Assembly: GCA_903875215.1 (NCBI GenBank)
Contig: CAIQVH010000019.1
Location: forward strand, 1 to 64,000
Source: an uncultured Anaerolineae bacterium
Lineage (GTDB): Bacteria > Chloroflexota > Anaerolineae > Anaerolineales > Villigracilaceae
Reading direction: 5' to 3'
Length of the DNA: 64,000 nucleotides
The position numbers were made by a program, and so were the translations under genes. Below are positions 11,227 through 51,096 of the stretch, in pieces. The notes beneath the pieces are model-generated. The model worked only from the letters and a program-made list of their open reading frames with translations. It did no database searches and had not been told where the DNA came from. How positions within the stretch are numbered: the stretch's first letter is position 1; every line of letters starts with the position of its first letter.

Positions 11227-11675
11227 GCTCCGCCCTCACCAAAATCGCGCATCCCAATCTTGCGCGCCGGAATTCCGGCCCAGATTTCGCCCTCGCCAGT
11301 CGATTCTGTCAGCACGGCATTCGCGCCGACGACGGTGCCCCGCCCAAGGCGCAGGATGCCTTCGGCGCACAGGATTTTGGCTCCAGAGCCGAGGATCACC
11401 TCATCGCCAACGACAATGCCCTCAAAACGGGAGGCGGATGCCGGGCGGTAAACATCCGCGCGGCCCAGGGTCACCCCCGGGTAAATGCTGACGCGCGTTC
11501 CAATCACGCTTTTCGGGTGAATAACGACGCCCATCCCGCCGTGGTGCAGCAAAAAACCCGGGCCAATTTCCACCGTGCACGGGATTTCCACACCAAGCAG
11601 TTTGAGCAAAAAATAAGCCAGTTTGCCCCACAGCGGGCTTTTTCTGGCATAGACCAAGCCTTCATAAAATGACAT
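11223..11675 (-). CDS. Serine acetyltransferase-like left-handed beta-helix acyltransferase
   Basis: A 150-residue hexapeptide-repeat protein. Repeats are visible from IPCTVEIGPGFLLHHGGMGVVIHPKSVIGTRVSIYPGVTLG onward. The catalytic histidine pair is in LLHHGGMGVVIHP, and the C-terminus is EIWAGIPARKIGMRDFG, as in LbH serine acetyltransferases and sugar O-acetyltransferases. It is much shorter than cysteine-biosynthetic CysE (about 270) and lacks the N-terminal helical domain, so O-acetylation of a glycan is more likely given the glycosyltransferase immediately downstream. A TATAAT lies only 6 nt before the ATG, so the transcript is probably leaderless. Confidence 0.85.
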   Translation of the reverse strand: MSFYEGLVYARKSPLWGKLAYFLLKLLGVEIPCTVEIGPGFLLHHGGMGVVIHPKSVIGTRVSIYPGVTLGRADVYRPASASRFEGIVVGDEVILGSGAKILCAEGILRLGRGTVVGANAVLTESTGEGEIWAGIPARKIGMRDFGEGGA

Positions 11676-11681
11676 GCGGCT

Positions 11682-11687
11682 ATTATA
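11682..11687 (-). promoter_or_regulatory. -10 box 6 nt before the acetyltransferase start (leaderless)
   Basis: On the minus strand TATAAT is followed by AGCCGC and then the ATG at 11675. Transcription starting 6-7 nt after the box would begin at or next to the start codon. No convincing -35 hexamer is visible. Confidence 0.55.
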
Positions 11688-11770
11688 CGCGTTGTTTCCC
11701 TCCCAGAGCTTGTCGTTGCAGGCCGGGGAATTATGGTATCCTTAATCATCCTATTTGGGAGAATCGCCGC

Positions 11771-12406
11771 ATGTATATCGCTATCGAGGGAGTGATCGGA
11801 GTTGGGAAGACCACCCTGGCACGCCTGCTCCAGCCGCGGTTTGAAAATTCTGACCTGATGCTGGAAGTCTTCGAGGAAAACCCCTTTCTTTCAGACTTTT
11901 ACAGCGACCGCGCCCGCTACGCCTTCCAGACCCAGATCTTCTTCCTGCTCAGCCGCTATCACCAGCAAAACAAAACCGTCCCGGCCATCCTCAACCACGG
12001 AAAAAGCCTGCTGGCCGATTACACCTTTGCCAAAGATTCCCTCTTTGCGCGCATCAACCTGCACGGCGACGAGTTGACCATGTATCACCGCGTCCATGCC
12101 GCGCTGGCCGAAAAAATCCCCCTGCCCGATCTGACGGTCTACCTTTCCGCCAGTATCGATACGCTCATGGCGCGCATCGCCCTGCGCGACCGGCCTTATG
12201 AGCGCGCCATGGAACGGACTTACATCAGTGACCTGGCCTCCAGCTACGATGACTTCTTCTCCAAAACATCCAGCCCCAAACTGGTCATCGACAGCAATTC
12301 ACTGGACTTTGTCCGCTACCCCGAACATCTCAAACTGATCGAAAACAAAATCCGCGAGGCTCTCGGCATCAGCCCATACCAGCCCGCGTTGCTGGAGGGA
12401 GATTGA
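11771..12406 (+). CDS. Deoxynucleoside kinase
   Basis: A 211-residue kinase of the dNK/dCK/dGK family, which phosphorylates deoxynucleosides for salvage. It opens MYIAIEGVIGVGKTTLARLL, a P-loop. It has the family helix FQTQIFFLLSRYHQQ, the substrate-site DYTFAKDSLFA, and the lid DRPYERAMERTYISDL. Base specificity cannot be told. Start at 11771 has GGGAG about 8 nt upstream; an open extension to 11669 overlaps the divergent promoter and is rejected. The stop is 1 nt from the ATG of the nucleotidyltransferase-fold gene, so the pair is an operon. Confidence 0.92.
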   Translation: MYIAIEGVIGVGKTTLARLLQPRFENSDLMLEVFEENPFLSDFYSDRARYAFQTQIFFLLSRYHQQNKTVPAILNHGKSLLADYTFAKDSLFARINLHGDELTMYHRVHAALAEKIPLPDLTVYLSASIDTLMARIALRDRPYERAMERTYISDLASSYDDFFSKTSSPKLVIDSNSLDFVRYPEHLKLIENKIREALGISPYQPALLEGD

Positions 12407-12407
12407 C

Positions 12408-13385
12408 ATGCGCACCACCCGCGAAACCCTGCTCAAACTGGCCAAGGACTATACCGAACAAAAACTCGTCTCCGACCGTAACGTGACCGCCGTATTTCTG
12501 GTCGGTTCGGTGCGCGCTGAAACCGCGCCCCTGCCCGCCGTGCTGGATGTGGACTTACTGGTCATCTACAATGGCGAACCACCACGCGAGCGCGAAATCA
12601 TCAAACTCTCCAACGAAGTCCACCTGGACATTGCCTTTGAACCGGCGCGGCTCTATGCCCAGCCGCGCGAACTGCGCGGCGACCCCTGGCGCGGCTGGGC
12701 CATGTGGGACCCGCAGCTGCTCCACGAAAAAGGCCGCTTCTTCGAATACACCCAGGCCATCGTTCGCTCCCATTTTGATGAGACCGAAAACCTGCTCAAC
12801 CGCTGCCGAAAATTCTCGGTTCCCGCGCGCATGGGCTGGAACGAGATGTTTTTCAACCCGGAAACCGCCACACCGTTAAAAATCCTTTCTGCCGCTCAGA
12901 ACGCCGCAAACGCCTTCGCCACCCTGGCCGGCCCGCCGCTGACCGAGCGCACCCTGCTCTCCGGCTTTGCAGCGCGCGCCGAAACCCTGCAAATGCCCGA
13001 AATGACCGGCAAACTGTTGAACATCCTCTCCGGCGACCTGAAACCCGACCTGGTAAAACAGGCCCTGCCGCACTGGGAACAGGCCTTCCTTTCCGCCGCA
13101 CCCGGCTCACCGGATGCGCGGCTGCACCCCGTCCGCCTGAAATACTATAAAACCTCCATAGAATCCCAATTAGCCGGGCCGCTGCCCGCCGCAGCCTTCT
13201 GGCCCCTGCTGCACACCTGGGCGCTGGCGCTCAGCCTCCCCATGACCCCGCCTGAAAACCAAGCCGATTGGGATGATTTCTGCCATGCAATTGGCCTGGC
13301 TCCCAACCGCATCGCCGAACGGATCGACGCATTGGACGCATTTCTCGACACACTCGAAGAGACTCTCGAGCAAAAAGCCGGGTAA
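12408..13385 (+). CDS. Nucleotidyltransferase-fold protein, uncharacterised
   Basis: The 325-residue product has, at residues 29-53, FLVGSVRAETAPLPAVLDVDLLVI. This matches the Pol-beta-type nucleotidyltransferase signature GS...DxD, with a third acidic strand VHLDIAFEP about 20 residues on. The remainder is helical with a hydrophobic C-terminal half (FWPLLHTWALALSLP) and no domain I can name. The fold is shared by MNT toxins/antitoxins, antibiotic nucleotidyltransferases and tRNA enzymes. Length and a large helical C-domain argue against a minimal MNT antitoxin. It is translated with the deoxynucleoside kinase just upstream, so a role in nucleotide metabolism is possible but unproven. Confidence 0.7.
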   Translation: MRTTRETLLKLAKDYTEQKLVSDRNVTAVFLVGSVRAETAPLPAVLDVDLLVIYNGEPPREREIIKLSNEVHLDIAFEPARLYAQPRELRGDPWRGWAMWDPQLLHEKGRFFEYTQAIVRSHFDETENLLNRCRKFSVPARMGWNEMFFNPETATPLKILSAAQNAANAFATLAGPPLTERTLLSGFAARAETLQMPEMTGKLLNILSGDLKPDLVKQALPHWEQAFLSAAPGSPDARLHPVRLKYYKTSIESQLAGPLPAAAFWPLLHTWALALSLPMTPPENQADWDDFCHAIGLAPNRIAERIDALDAFLDTLEETLEQKAG

Positions 13386-13826
13386 AGCACCCCCCGTATA
13401 TCCTATATATGGGGTTGAGCAATTCTTTCCAAAAAAGAGGCAAAAGGCCCATTTTCAACAATTTCTGTGGATAACTGCCCAATATCTGTGGATAAACGAG
13501 TCGGATTGTGGAGAAAGTGATCACCTGTTCGAAAAATAAAAAACCAGCAAACACCATATATGGGGGGTATCCCGCCAGCCTGCCAAAAAATAGGTTGGCC
13601 TAGATTTCTCATAAAATCCGGCCAGCCGGGTTGCCGTGAAGTTATCCACAAACAGTCGGCCGCTCCGCTTAACGGGCCGACCCAACATATCGGCCTATTT
13701 CGCCCTGCGGCAGCTACCAATGGGGGATGCCTTTCAGTTATCCACATCATCCACAGACCCTACTACGACGACTATAAGTTAAATTATAATTACCATAAAG
13801 GGTAAGAATCTTTGGAATAGAAATCC
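13386..13826. other. Candidate chromosomal replication origin (oriC)
   Basis: No gene is present. Four perfect DnaA boxes (TTATCCACA) occur: minus orientation at 13466-13474 and 13487-13495, plus orientation at 13642-13650 and 13738-13746. One-mismatch boxes lie at 13507-13515 and 13747-13755. The inner pairs face each other across about 150 bp. Directly after the last box is an AT-rich stretch (about 13768-13800) that could be the unwinding element. The motif ATATAYGGGG appears three times at 13392-13414 and 13556-13565, two copies forming an inverted repeat. Perfect boxes elsewhere in the window are single and inside genes. dnaA is not adjacent; dnaN is 36 kb away. Confidence 0.75.
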
Positions 13827-13855
13827 TTGTATTGAAGTGGGGAATCCTGTACAAT
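13827..13855 (+). promoter_or_regulatory. Promoter of spoVS
   Basis: TTGTAT (13827-13832), a 17-nt spacer and TACAAT (13850-13855) preceded by TG form a convincing vegetative-type promoter. It reads from the edge of the origin-like region into spoVS, with a leader of about 60 nt. Confidence 0.7.
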
Positions 13856-13922
13856 CTTTTTTAGACGCTTATTGATTGAATACAAGACAGGCCCCTCTTT
13901 AGAATTAGAAGGGAGAACCATT

Positions 13923-14183
13923 ATGGATATGATTAAAGTTTCTGCCAACTCCCGCACTTCCGCCGTGGCCGGGGCGATCGCTGGAGTGGTTCGTGAGCAT
14001 AAACGTGCCGAGGTACAGGCAATTGGCGCAGGCGCGGTCAATCAGGCCGTCAAGGCCCTGGTCCTTGCCAAAGGCTATCTGGATGGTGATGGCATCCACG
14101 TGATCTGCGTGCCGGAATTTGTGGATGTGGATATTGACGGAAAAGTGCGCACCGCCATTAAAATGGTGGTTGAGCCACGCTAA
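13923..14183 (+). CDS. spoVS: Stage V sporulation protein S family (SpoVS)
   Basis: An 86-residue Alba-like protein: MDMIKVSANSRTSAVAGAIAGVVREHKRAEVQAIGAGAVNQAVKALVLAKGYL and ending with IKMVVEP. This is near-identical in pattern to SpoVS across Firmicutes, Deinococcus-Thermus and Chloroflexota. In Bacillus it affects septation and sporulation stage V; outside endospore formers its role is not settled, and the Alba-like fold suggests nucleic-acid binding. Start at 13923 has GGGAG 7-8 nt upstream. It stands alone between the origin-like region and a terminator. Its position next to the putative origin is notable for a possible nucleoid-associated protein. Confidence 0.95.
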   Translation: MDMIKVSANSRTSAVAGAIAGVVREHKRAEVQAIGAGAVNQAVKALVLAKGYLDGDGIHVICVPEFVDVDIDGKVRTAIKMVVEPR

Positions 14184-14248: not shown

Positions 14249-16423
14249 ATGCGCTTGCCCCCAGATTCCTTCCATCCCCCCCGTCCAGACCGTCAGGTCT
14301 GGATGAGGCGTTGGCCCAGCGCTGTCGGACTTGTTTTCCTGGGCATTTGTCTGATCGTCTCGCTGGCTGTGCCGCCCGCCCGGGCGCAGCCAGCCCAGGC
14401 CAACCTGCCGATGACGGTCATCATCAACGAAGTTGCCTGGATGGGGACAGAAAGCAGCATCAACCAGGAATGGATCGAGCTGTATAACCCCGGCGTTTCC
14501 AGTGTCAGCCTGGTAAATTGGACGCTCAAATCGAGCGATCTGACTCTCTCCATCACCCTGACCGGCAGCATTGCAGCCGGCGGCTATTATTTACTCGAGC
14601 GCACGGCGGATACCACCGTCAGCAATATTTCAGCTGATCAAATTTACACTGGCACGCTAACCAATACAGGCATGTCTCTTAATCTTGCCAATGCCAGCGC
14701 AACGCCGATTGACACCGCCAATGCCAACGGCGGCGACTGGCCGGGCGGGACGAACACTAGTGCCACCGCGCGTTGCAGCATGGAACGCAAAGGCCCGCTG
14801 CTCGACGAGGACATCTCCTGGGTAACCTCCAGCACCACCTCGATCGGCCTCGATAGTACCGGAAAAGTGATTTGCGGAACTCCCAAAGCGCAAAATTCCC
14901 AATACGTCACCCCAACGCTGACCCCTTCCATTACCCCAACCGGCACAGAAACTCTAACGCCCACGGTAACGGCCACCTCCACCGCCACCTCCACCGTCAC
15001 GTTGACAGGAACCGCCACCTCCACCGCAACGAGTACGGCTACAGTCACCTTAACCGGCACTTCCACCTCCACCGCCACCGTTACCCTGACCGATACCGTT
15101 ACGGCCACCGGAACCGCCACCGGAACCGCCACCAGTACCGCAACCGCCACTTCCACGGCCACCGCCACCCAGACCCCCACCCTCACGCGTACCTCCACCC
15201 CGGCTCCCAGCATGTCCGTGCTGATTAACGAAATCGGCTGGATGGGCACCACCGCCAGTTCCAGCGATGAATGGATTGAACTCTACAACCCCGGATCCAG
15301 TTCCATCAACCTGGCCGGTTGGAGGCTGGAAACGACTGAAAGCGGAACGAAATCGCTCTCCTTCACCTTCACCAACTGCGCTGCCCCGCTGAACTGCATT
15401 ATTTCTCCTCTGGGCTACCTGCTGCTCGAACGCACCGACGATACCACCATCTCCAATCTGGCCGCCGATCAGATATTCACCGGCACGCTCCCCAATACCG
15501 GTTATTATCAAAGCCTGCGCCTGTATTCAGGCACCAACCAGCTGATTGACACAGCCAACGCCAACGGCGGCGACTGGCCCGCCGGGAACGTCTCTTCTCT
15601 CTGCAGCATGGAACGCCGCGGCTCCACCTATGCCGATAGCGACACTGCCTGGATTACCAACACCGGTCTTCTAAAGAACGGCCTGGACGCGGCCACGCCC
15701 ACTCCCAACGCCATCTGCGGCACGCCCAAAAACATCAACTGGGCTTATTTTGTCACCCCCACTCCTTCACCGGTCAAATCCCTGACGCCCACCCGCACGC
15801 CCACGCGTACCCGCACGCCCACGCCCAACCCGCTCGGCGAGATGGTGGTGATCAACGAATTTTTGTCTCAACCTCATTCCGATTGGAACAACGACGGCAG
15901 TGTGGACAATGGGGATGAATTCATCGAAATTATCAACCTCGGCGTACAGACGGTTTCCCTGACCAACTGGAAACTCGATGATCGCGATGGCGATTCCTCG
16001 CCATTCACCCTCAAAAATGTCAGCATCGAACCCGGCACGCGGATGGTGTTTTTTACTTCCGAAACCGGACTGCTGCTCAGCGATGGCGGCGACAGCGTGC
16101 GCCTGTTCAAATCCACAGGCCAGTTGGTTGACGCCTTCACTTACACCAGCGCCTCCGTCCTTGAGCGCAGCTGGTGCCGCCTGGAAAAAATATGGAACAC
16201 GGGCTGCCTGCCCACTCCCGGGCAGGCCAACCAGCTGGCGCAAACGGATATGATCGGCAGCAGCCAGTTGCCGCACCTTTGCCTTACCCCCGGTTTGCCA
16301 GAGAGCATTTACCGCGCCGAGTGTGACCTCCCTGATACAGCCAGCCGGGCTGTTCCAGACGAGGCCCTGCCTCTGGTGCCGATGTACCTCGAAGAAAACG
16401 GCATTCTCTTTATATTCGAATAA
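14249..16423 (+). CDS. Secreted protein with three lamin-tail domains and Thr-rich linkers
   Basis: The 724-residue product has a basic N-terminus and a hydrophobic export signal ending PPARAQPAQA (about residues 20-48). Three lamin-tail (LTD) domains follow. The first two open with VIINEVAWMGTESS/LINEIGWMGTTASS and EWIELYNPG and share DTANANGGDWP. The third opens VVINEFLSQPHSDWNNDG and EFIEIINLG. Linkers of about 100 and 25 residues are almost pure Thr/Ala/Ser/Pro (TATSTATSTV type) and would be extended, probably glycosylated, spacers. No LPxTG or C-terminal membrane anchor is seen. The start may instead be an ATG at 14303, which directly follows a 7-bp palindrome (CCAGACC/GGTCTGG) and gives a shorter classical signal peptide. 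LTDs in bacteria are found on secreted nucleases and surface proteins; no enzyme domain is present here. Confidence 0.85.
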   Translation: MRLPPDSFHPPRPDRQVWMRRWPSAVGLVFLGICLIVSLAVPPARAQPAQANLPMTVIINEVAWMGTESSINQEWIELYNPGVSSVSLVNWTLKSSDLTLSITLTGSIAAGGYYLLERTADTTVSNISADQIYTGTLTNTGMSLNLANASATPIDTANANGGDWPGGTNTSATARCSMERKGPLLDEDISWVTSSTTSIGLDSTGKVICGTPKAQNSQYVTPTLTPSITPTGTETLTPTVTATSTATSTVTLTGTATSTATSTATVTLTGTSTSTATVTLTDTVTATGTATGTATSTATATSTATATQTPTLTRTSTPAPSMSVLINEIGWMGTTASSSDEWIELYNPGSSSINLAGWRLETTESGTKSLSFTFTNCAAPLNCIISPLGYLLLERTDDTTISNLAADQIFTGTLPNTGYYQSLRLYSGTNQLIDTANANGGDWPAGNVSSLCSMERRGSTYADSDTAWITNTGLLKNGLDAATPTPNAICGTPKNINWAYFVTPTPSPVKSLTPTRTPTRTRTPTPNPLGEMVVINEFLSQPHSDWNNDGSVDNGDEFIEIINLGVQTVSLTNWKLDDRDGDSSPFTLKNVSIEPGTRMVFFTSETGLLLSDGGDSVRLFKSTGQLVDAFTYTSASVLERSWCRLEKIWNTGCLPTPGQANQLAQTDMIGSSQLPHLCLTPGLPESIYRAECDLPDTASRAVPDEALPLVPMYLEENGILFIFE

Positions 16424-26675: not shown

Positions 26676-27602
26676 ATGAACCAATCCAGCTCCCTGGAAG
26701 CCGTTTCCCTGCAAGATTCCTGGCTTACCATCGGCGTTTTTGACGGAGTCCACCGCGGCCACCAGGAAATCATCCGCCAACTGATAGCAGGCGCGCACTT
26801 CAACGGCGCGCCTGCCGTTTTGCTCACCTTCTCTCCGCACCCGGCCCGTGTGCTGGCCGGCAAAGACATCCCCTGCCTGACCACTCCCGCCGAACGCGCC
26901 GAAATACTGGCCAGCCTCGGCCTGGATGAACTCATCACCCTGCCCTTCACCCGCGAAACCGCCGCACGCAGCGCCGAAGACTTCATCGTCGAGCTCAAAA
27001 CGCGCCTCGGCCTGAAAAAACTGCTCATCGGCTATGACTTTGCGCTCGGCAAGAACCGCGCCGGCGATTTTCAACGCCTGAGTGAACTTGGCCGGCAGCT
27101 GGATTTTGAAACCCGGGCGGTGGATGCCATCCGCTTAAACGGCGAAATCCTCTCCTCCACACTCATCCGCCAAAGCTTGCTCGATGGCGCCGTGGCCCTG
27201 GCCGCCGAAAAACTGGGACGCTGTTACACCCTGACTGGCCCCATCGTCCCCGGCGACGCGCGCGGGCGCACCATCGGCATCCCTACCGCCAATGTTGAGT
27301 TTCCCGCCGAAAAGGTGGTCCCGGCCAATGGCGTCTACGCCTGCCGGGCGTGGGTTGACGGCCAGCGCCACTCGGCGGTGACGAACATTGGCGTGCGGCC
27401 CACCTTTACCAGCGGCGATGTGGCCACCCGCGTCGAAACACACCTGCTCGATTATTCTGCCGACTTGTATGGGAAGATCCTGCGCCTCGAGTTTGTCGAA
27501 CGGTTGCGCGGCGAGCAGAAATTCACTTCGGTCGAGGCGCTGGTGGCCCAAATCCGCGCCGATATTTCGCGCGCCCGGCAGATCTTGTCTGGCGGGGAGT
27601 GA
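26676..27602 (+). CDS. ribF: Bifunctional riboflavin kinase / FAD synthetase
   Basis: RibF makes FMN from riboflavin and then FAD. The N-terminal nucleotidyltransferase half (residues 1-180) has WLTIGVFDGVHRGHQEIIRQL, LLTFSPHPARVL and the loop ILSSTLIRQSLLDG. The C-terminal kinase half has the Mg-ATP motif GRTIGIPTANVEFP, AVTNIGVRPTF and the end VETHLLDYSADLYGKILRLEFVERLRGEQKF with the catalytic glutamate region. The 308-residue length is normal. It is the last gene of the nusA operon, followed by a strong terminator. Together with the riboflavin importer at 44-47 kb it gives a full uptake-to-cofactor route in this window. Confidence 0.96.
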   Translation: MNQSSSLEAVSLQDSWLTIGVFDGVHRGHQEIIRQLIAGAHFNGAPAVLLTFSPHPARVLAGKDIPCLTTPAERAEILASLGLDELITLPFTRETAARSAEDFIVELKTRLGLKKLLIGYDFALGKNRAGDFQRLSELGRQLDFETRAVDAIRLNGEILSSTLIRQSLLDGAVALAAEKLGRCYTLTGPIVPGDARGRTIGIPTANVEFPAEKVVPANGVYACRAWVDGQRHSAVTNIGVRPTFTSGDVATRVETHLLDYSADLYGKILRLEFVERLRGEQKFTSVEALVAQIRADISRARQILSGGE

Positions 27603-49965: not shown

Positions 49966-51096
49966 TTATCCCAAATGCATGGGCATGATGACGTGAATGA
50001 ACCCATCTTCGCCCACCGGGCGGACGACGCCGGGGGCGTTGCCGGCGGAGGTTTCAATGGCCACGTTGGGGGTTTTGATGACTTCCAGCACTTCGCGCAG
50101 GAATTTGACATTGAAGGCGATCAGCAGGGGGATGCCGTCCACCGTGGCCTCGACGATGGTTTCGTTTGAACCGGTTTCCTCGCTGTGGGCCGAGATTTCC
50201 ACCTCACCCGGCTGCAGTTCTCCGCTGTTCTTGATGTTCATGCGCACCACGTTGGATCCTTCGCGTGCAAAAATTTCGGCCTGTTTGCAGGCTTTTAACA
50301 GCGAGGCTGTTGCCACCAGGGTGCGCGATTTGTGTGAGCGTGGAATGATTTGCTGGTAATCGGGGAAGGTGCCGTCGATCAGCTGAGAGACCAGTTCGGC
50401 ATCCTTGACGCGGAACACGACCTGCCCACGCCCTTTGGGAATTACCATCTGGATCATTTGATCGCCCTCGCTGGTAATGCGCGCCAGCTCTGAAAGCGCG
50501 CGGGCCGGGATGATGGCTGTCAGCGGCTGGGCTGCGGCCCCCGAAAGCGTGGAGGTGCGCACCGAAAGGCGGAAGCCATCTGCCGCGGCCATGGTGATGG
50601 TGTCCTTTTCCACTTTGACCAGCACGCCCATCAGCACCGGGCGGGCTTCATCCGTCGAAGCGGCAAAGGCCACCTGCTGAATCATTTCCTTGAAGTTCTG
50701 GACGTTGATCTGCAGCGCGTCTGAAAAATCGGGCACCGGCAGGGGCGGGAATTCCTGCGCGTCGATGCCCTTGATGTCATTGGTGGAGGCGCCCGAGCGT
50801 ACATTGAGCGTCTGGGTGCGCGCATCCAGTGTCAGGCTGACCTGCGGGTTGGGCATGGTGCCGACCAGGTCGGCCAGGGTGCGCGACGGGACGGTGGTGG
50901 AGCCCTCTTCCTCGATCTTGGCCCCGATCCAGCAGGTGATGCCCATCTCCAGGTTGGTGGCCGAAAGGCGTAAACGGCCTTCGTCAGTGGCGATCAGCAC
51001 GTTCGCCAGTACGGGCAGCGTGCTGCGGGGCGATACGGCGCGTGAAACGGTACTCAGGCCGCGGGCCAGGTTCTCTTGCAGTACGGTAACTTTCAT
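49966..51096 (-). CDS. dnaN: DNA polymerase III beta subunit (sliding clamp)
   Basis: The processivity clamp of the replicative polymerase. The 376-residue protein has the three-domain clamp layout: MKVTVLQENLARGLSTVSRAVSPRSTLPVLANVLIATDEGRLRLSATNLEMGI, then DDIKG-like NDIKGIDAQEFPPLP and AASTDEARPVLMGVLVKVE. Next come AADGFRLSVRTS, LIDGTFPDYQQIIPR, and the C-terminal VGEDGFIHVIMPMHLG (the usual M-P-x-R/x-L ending). AGGAG lies about 10 nt upstream. dnaA and recF are not adjacent, and the clamp gene is far from the origin-like region, an unusual layout. Confidence 0.97.
   Translation of the reverse strand: MKVTVLQENLARGLSTVSRAVSPRSTLPVLANVLIATDEGRLRLSATNLEMGITCWIGAKIEEEGSTTVPSRTLADLVGTMPNPQVSLTLDARTQTLNVRSGASTNDIKGIDAQEFPPLPVPDFSDALQINVQNFKEMIQQVAFAASTDEARPVLMGVLVKVEKDTITMAAADGFRLSVRTSTLSGAAAQPLTAIIPARALSELARITSEGDQMIQMVIPKGRGQVVFRVKDAELVSQLIDGTFPDYQQIIPRSHKSRTLVATASLLKACKQAEIFAREGSNVVRMNIKNSGELQPGEVEISAHSEETGSNETIVEATVDGIPLLIAFNVKFLREVLEVIKTPNVAIETSAGNAPGVVRPVGEDGFIHVIMPMHLG

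Follow-up and report, generated by a model that had tools for sequence, protein, structure and literature searches.

A cluster of DnaA boxes beside spoVS in an Anaerolineales genome (G000; 3.77 Mb in 38 contigs) is very probably, judging by its sequence and by that of its relatives, the chromosomal origin of replication, oriC. Palindromes like CCCCATATATGGGG lie among its DnaA boxes and upstream of dnaA, in fixed and helically phased places, and were absent from an earlier note on this DNA. On balance we favour, as a probable explanation, a bipartite oriC of the BUS type (Bacillus subtilis type) with a built-in operator for an NrdR-class regulator, which would be shared with the dnaA promoter and would act as a brake on initiation when dATP is high. 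The whole stretch of DNA analysed, here called the window, covers 64 kb (C19:1-64000) of contig C19, which is 231.6 kb long. Its features relevant to the origin are as follows.

11669-12406, plus strand: deoxynucleoside kinase gene, left of p325 (Pfam dNK, E 2.8e-34)
12408-13385, plus strand: p325, left neighbour of oriC, without a Pfam match
13401-13414, no strand: left NrdR-type palindrome, 16.2 bits
13466-13515, minus strand: left DnaA-box triple, exact at 13466-13474 and 13487-13495 and with one mismatch at 13507-13515, in steps of 21 and 20 bp, the same spacing as in relatives
13552-13565, no strand: main NrdR-type palindrome, 19.5 bits, one mismatch to CCCCATATATGGGG
13582-13595, no strand: weak partner box, 3.7 bits, 30 bp from the main palindrome
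13642-13650, plus strand: middle DnaA box, exact
13681-13694, no strand: marginal third NrdR-type site, 9.5 bits
13738-13755, plus strand: right DnaA-box pair, exact at 13738-13746 and with one mismatch at 13747-13755, the box part of BUS and tandem in relatives
13760-13774, plus strand: DnaA-trios (CTA CTA CGA CGA CTA), 13 bp past the exact box
13775-13835, no strand: AT-rich tract, by its AT content the probable DNA unwinding element
13827-13855, plus strand: spoVS promoter-like sequence, TTGTAT then TACAAT, kept in 20 of 21 loci
13923-14183, plus strand: spoVS, 86 aa (Pfam SpoVS, E 1.8e-34)
49966-51096, minus strand: dnaN, encoding the sliding clamp, some 36 kb away from the cluster

The window holds seven exact TTATCCACA boxes, against 0.17 expected from shuffles. 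The earlier note had listed four of these in the cluster, together with two boxes of one mismatch, and all six are present: the exact ones at 13466(-), 13487(-), 13642(+) and 13738(+), the others at 13507(-) and 13747(+). The remaining three exact boxes (7741, 25777 and 42306) are singletons, as it had said. Across the 3.77-Mb genome we counted 40 exact boxes, and 12 occurrences of the reversed control pattern. Four of the 40 fall in the 281 bp of the cluster, and only there do exact boxes pair more closely than roughly 2 kb. Nowhere else on contig C19 do more than two boxes of at most one mismatch fall within 500 bp. The segment had been described as gene-free and followed by an AT-rich tract, and it does run free of genes from the end of p325 at 13385 to the start of spoVS at 13923, with a 60-bp stretch at 13773 that is 77% AT, among the highest of the window. 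dnaN is as distant as reported, and dnaA, said not to be adjacent, sits on another contig, C21. One element of that description was wrong: the left boxes are minus-strand and the right boxes plus-strand, so that the two sets diverge and point outward instead of facing one another. Directly after the right box pair follows CTACTACGACGACTA, the DnaA-trios, in the same arrangement of right pair and trios as is presented in PMC8287927.

We compared this layout across 61 genomes, 47 of which (own genome included) have a spoVS match. Among the best 80 spoVS loci of a longer match list, 60 carry at least four boxes with no more than one mismatch within 400 bp upstream, 14 have no box cluster and 6 are too short upstream, which makes 60 of 74 scorable loci; some of the 14 boxless loci are extra spoVS copies, as with L086 and L100, which come from the same assembly as the cluster-bearing L080. 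Conservation upstream of spoVS, the check that the earlier note had proposed, is thus borne out, with spacings conserved as well: relatives have three left boxes in 21- and 20-bp steps, the right pair, DnaA-trios and then the spoVS promoter. Of the 61 genomes (own genome included), 50 have the 21-bp box pair, 40 of them exactly once and 10 more often; a control pattern gave 0 of 61. When trios are scored by a simple motif (counting by a run rule is less telling), they start after the last box, that of the right pair, in 57 of 58 loci; 200 shuffles averaged 10.7 and never exceeded 23.

The palindromes have equally regular places. In G000, CCATATATGG occurs at four places, including the origin segment and the region upstream of dnaA, and the four best sites for CCCCAYATRTGGGG are C6:17412, C21:119524 upstream of dnaA, 13552 in the cluster and C38:88762; at two mismatches, CCCCAYATRTGGGG has 24 sites in its own genome compared with 14 for the control. 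Allowing at most one mismatch across the 61 genomes, we counted 131 sites within the family of the window genome against 35 for the control, and 74 against 61 outside it; the signal thus lies in the location of the sites more than in their number, and the small excess outside the family speaks against the explanation favoured here. The main palindrome stands 75-77 bp (7 loci), 86-87 bp (14) or 96-98 bp (37) from the DnaA pair, that is, in steps of a helical turn; many relatives have a third palindrome ahead of the right DnaA pair, and upstream of dnaA a palindrome with up to two mismatches is present in 26 of 30 loci, where its position hardly varies, all counts that kinship among the loci inflates. 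Outside the family, an NrdR-type match is present in 13 of 27 box-pair loci (families f3, f4, f5, f6, f7, f8, f10, f13 and f14), and none was found in the box-pair loci of f2, f9, f11 and f15. These matches, together with the shifts by helical steps, speak against an explanation by common descent of a single sequence alone. A wider pattern gave 29 finds in 396 genomes of the class and none for the control, and, as it includes the palindrome, absence of the palindrome is not measurable with it.

Two further places in G000 deserve description in their own right. The perfect CCCCATATATGGGG at L317:3499-3512 (G000:C6:17412-17425) lies upstream of a gene for an AAA_14/DUF4143 ATPase. A 707-aa protein (L324:6121-8244; G000:C38:90120-92243) has DnaA domain I (E 1.8e-14) as its sole Pfam match at E 0.001 and is encoded near a ParA-like gene; a one-mismatch NrdR-type palindrome lies upstream of this parA. 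Similar proteins occur in several relatives, with two copies in relative G018, and its sequence suggests an initiator-like protein that belongs to a mobile element.

In the explanation we favour, oriC spans window positions 13401-13835, and DnaA would bind its left box triple and its right box pair, extend from the right pair along the DnaA-trios and open the AT-rich tract beside the spoVS promoter. The origin operator would consist of the strong palindrome and its weak partner 30 bp off, both lying between the left and right DnaA clusters, and of a further palindrome at the left edge. At high dATP, NrdR tetramers loaded with dATP and ATP would occupy oriC as well as the promoter of dnaA. They would bend the DNA that separates the DnaA clusters and would restrain initiation, and expression of dnaA, in step with the ribonucleotide-reductase genes; as dATP falls, NrdR would release. 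The nrdR gene is present in 58 of the 61 genomes, and the NrdR of G000 has the Zn-ribbon and the ATP-cone. As described in PMC9110341, a dATP- and ATP-loaded NrdR tetramer binds two boxes and sharply bends the DNA, and NrdR carrying ATP only is presented there as not binding; PMC4898720, citing work in Escherichia coli, states to the contrary that dATP inhibits NrdR binding.

The boxes are observed, with their spacing, phasing and conservation; that NrdR binds the origin, and above all that it does so as a brake and not as a helper, we infer. The same oriC with the same NrdR parts could also be read with NrdR as an architectural helper that joins the DnaA clusters by bending, a reading that we regard as less likely but as a serious rival. 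The position of the main box, between the two DnaA clusters and helically phased to the left boxes, would suit such a role, as would the sharp bending of DNA by NrdR reported in PMC9110341. Against it, NrdR is described as a repressor in the portions of the literature examined, and the delay of initiation at raised dNTPs in Caulobacter fits a brake better, although PMC12186491, which reports that delay, calls the mechanism undefined and favours other targets.

Whether the palindromes belong to NrdR can be judged from the boxes at nrdR itself. Exact palindromes lie directly upstream of nrdR (assigned by TIGR00244) in four genomes of other families (L308, L310, L311 and L314). The large gene behind nrdR in these loci we take, by eye, to resemble a class II reductase. 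We collected 31 nrdR loci (30 from relatives and that of G000), 28 of them framed, and upstream of these 28 genes two boxes match best when 31 bp apart, among all spacings from 15 to 69 bp, with a mean mismatch of 7.57 against 11.36 (SD 0.88). The conserved GC pairs 9/18 and 40/49 of NrdR boxes described in PMC9110341 translate into a C and a G nine bases apart (C-N8-G) in each box and a spacing of 31 bp. For a scoring matrix we used 20 nrdR loci (40 boxes), dropping the eight whose mismatch sum exceeded 9; the gene-proximal box has C-N8-G in all 20 and the distal box in just 8, which we count against the NrdR part of the explanation.

Applied to 58 origins (the named loci that carry the box pair; 31.9 kb, each start counted), this matrix, trained on nrdR loci only, gave 151 matches of at least 9 bits, with one or more in every origin and two or more in 53, whereas dinucleotide shuffles averaged 9.1 and gave 17 at most. 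A match of at least 13 bits is found in 56 of the 58 origins, and a sample of 1.17 Mb of G018 away from its origin has 16 such matches. The 18.6 kb upstream of dnaA yield 30 matches, and 39 kb of coding sequence none. The main origin palindrome has C-N8-G around an ATATAT-like centre, as NrdR boxes do, and its best partner spacing is +30 bp (z 4.7), with C-N8-G in the partner in 55 of 58 origins. These partners are weak: their median is 2.7 bits, that of the window scores 3.7 bits, and 16 of the 58 reach 5 bits or more. Both this weakness and the spacing of 30 bp, compared with 31 bp at nrdR, count against the NrdR part. For the dnaA palindrome the best partner lies at +31 bp (z 3.5), the next at -39 (z 3.1), and the +31 partners average -6 bits, with only 1 of 28 above 9 bits, which likewise speaks against it. 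No 31-bp partner of the left oriC palindrome was found, and the top partner spacings of the right one, +32, +30 and -31 (z 2.3-2.4), are no more than suggestive.

The same conservation data also fit a regulator other than NrdR, that is, a plain BUS-type oriC at which some other origin regulator binds the palindromes and also acts on dnaA and nrdR. Residues 15-17 of NrdR read D-T-x in 28 of 28 framed relatives, and x is never R (for example, L361:7031-7468), so that the R17 to which PMC9110341 assigns specificity in Streptomyces coelicolor NrdR, which uses D15 and R17, is replaced throughout. The palindromes of oriC and dnaA, moreover, often deviate less from perfect CCCCATATATGGGG than do the nrdR boxes, and the weak partners and the distal nrdR boxes noted above point the same way. 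What makes such a regulator improbable is that the 31-bp tandem at nrdR and the C-N8-G of every gene-proximal box are features of NrdR, and that the best partner spacings are 30 bp at oriC and 31 bp at dnaA. A residue other than R at position 17 may go with the CCCC/GGGG outer positions of the palindrome.

The neighbours of the origin module vary while its anatomy stays constant. In the tally of 33 spoVS-bearing genomes of the family, 23 have the boxes directly upstream of spoVS, in 7 the pair lies elsewhere, and 3 are unscored (contig ends, no pair found or left out). Where the module lies away from spoVS it usually adjoins the deoxynucleoside-kinase gene, and six of these seven members retain both p325 and the kinase (L223, L224 and L226-L229); in one of them, G014 (L226), dnaN lies about 3 kb past the box pair. 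Of the 58 named spoVS-side origin loci, 20 showed p325 and 22 the kinase, so no neighbour is universal. On the other side of spoVS, the window encodes a 724-aa protein (14249-16423) with three lamin-tail-domain stretches and T/P/S-rich linkers between them, a homologue of which is present in 51 of the 58 loci. The box pair adjoins dnaA in six other families of the order (L243-L249 and L258). In G045, from another family of the order, the oriC pair, dnaA and spoVS all fall inside a span of 2.8 kb (L245:2031-4757), and this origin carries strong NrdR-type boxes.

As for strand skew, the cumulative GC minimum of contig C19 lies at 27461, 14 kb from the cluster. In G018, a single-contig relative of 4.40 Mb with the box pair at 505592 and dnaA at 3067522, we fitted skews from 39 evenly spaced stretches: TA skew fits best at 460 kb, with R2 0.63 both there and at the cluster and near-best fits over 0.35-1.0 Mb, and GC skew fits best near 1.01 Mb, with R2 0.34 there, near-best fits over 0.68-1.11 Mb and R2 0.22 at the cluster. 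A denser local skew table has no clean step, and coding direction is uninformative (R2 0.001). The GC-skew check that the earlier note had suggested therefore came out weak, with the best fit some 0.5 Mb off the cluster, whereas TA skew fits the cluster; as a sharp origin locator, GC skew failed. With G018 dnaA taken as the origin, neither GC nor TA skew gave a positive-leading-strand fit. In the 20 kb around dnaA of G000 (C21) we found no DnaA boxes with up to one mismatch, and because of this and the missing leading-strand fit in G018 we reject a dnaA-linked origin in G000. Skew is thus against an origin at dnaA, yet does not place the origin sharply.

It would be in keeping with this imprecision of GC skew, and with the second 21-bp pair in 10 of the 61 genomes, from which it follows that such pairs are not all origins, if the cluster were a site of DnaA titration or DnaA reactivation and the true origin lay elsewhere. 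Such a reading is highly improbable given that the box pair, trios and AT-rich tract are conserved jointly, that G000 has no other exact-box pair within 2 kb and a boxless dnaA region, and that six other families of the order have the pair beside dnaA. The earlier note's own reading of the cluster as oriC draws support from conservation at spoVS, the box-pair counts, the DnaA-trios and the TA skew of G018. Second arrays of 21-bp-spaced DnaA boxes, at L231:10001 (G017:C105) and L253:10001 (G043:C113) in genomes that have another pair, are without NrdR-type matches and are possibly titration sites or element origins.

Lastly, the palindromes lie upstream of spoVS in the window and could be read as ordinary operators of its promoter, which we reject because spoVS loci without DnaA boxes do not have them (one matrix match in 14 kb over the 14 boxless loci of the best 80) and origins away from spoVS (L223-L230) keep them.

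If the favoured explanation is true, an operator for a dATP sensor embedded in the origin would be a direct link, through one protein, from nucleotide supply to origin firing, in another phylum than that of Caulobacter. Candidate NrdR sites inside oriC appear to be new: no report of NrdR sites in an origin was found in the literature searched, mostly non-subscription and in the portions available (including PMC12176259, PMC11853086, PMC12186491, PMC3840689 and PMC4898720), and NrdR has zero occurrences in the available portion of PMC4285127, which reviews origin instructions and the proteins that bind origins. For the complete claim, that NrdR binds oriC and the dnaA promoter in Anaerolineales, that the dNTP pool gates initiation through it and that this is absent from the literature searched, we would stop just short of an even bet. 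The anatomy also yields a rule for finding origins, namely a 21-bp box pair, a right pair with trios and an NrdR-type palindrome at about +76, +87 or +97, which serves a largely uncultured family in which dnaA does not adjoin oriC.

Compared with known systems, the window origin shares with BUS-type oriC the tandem DnaA boxes, the 13-bp spacer from the strong box, the CTA-type trios and the AT-rich tract, but lies beside spoVS instead of dnaA and has NrdR-type palindromes. With the NrdR operator of S. coelicolor nrdRJ it has in common the C-N8-G palindrome and a best pair spacing of about three turns; in contrast to that operator, the palindromes here lie inside oriC and upstream of dnaA and have CCCC/GGGG as outer positions, the oriC partner is weak and at 30 bp, and NrdR residue 17 is not R. 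Regulator sites interleaved with DnaA boxes are described in PMC4285127 for CtrA at the Caulobacter origin and for Spo0A at B. subtilis oriC, and the arrangement proposed here would resemble both, with the difference that CtrA and Spo0A are controlled by phosphorylation whereas NrdR senses dATP and ATP.
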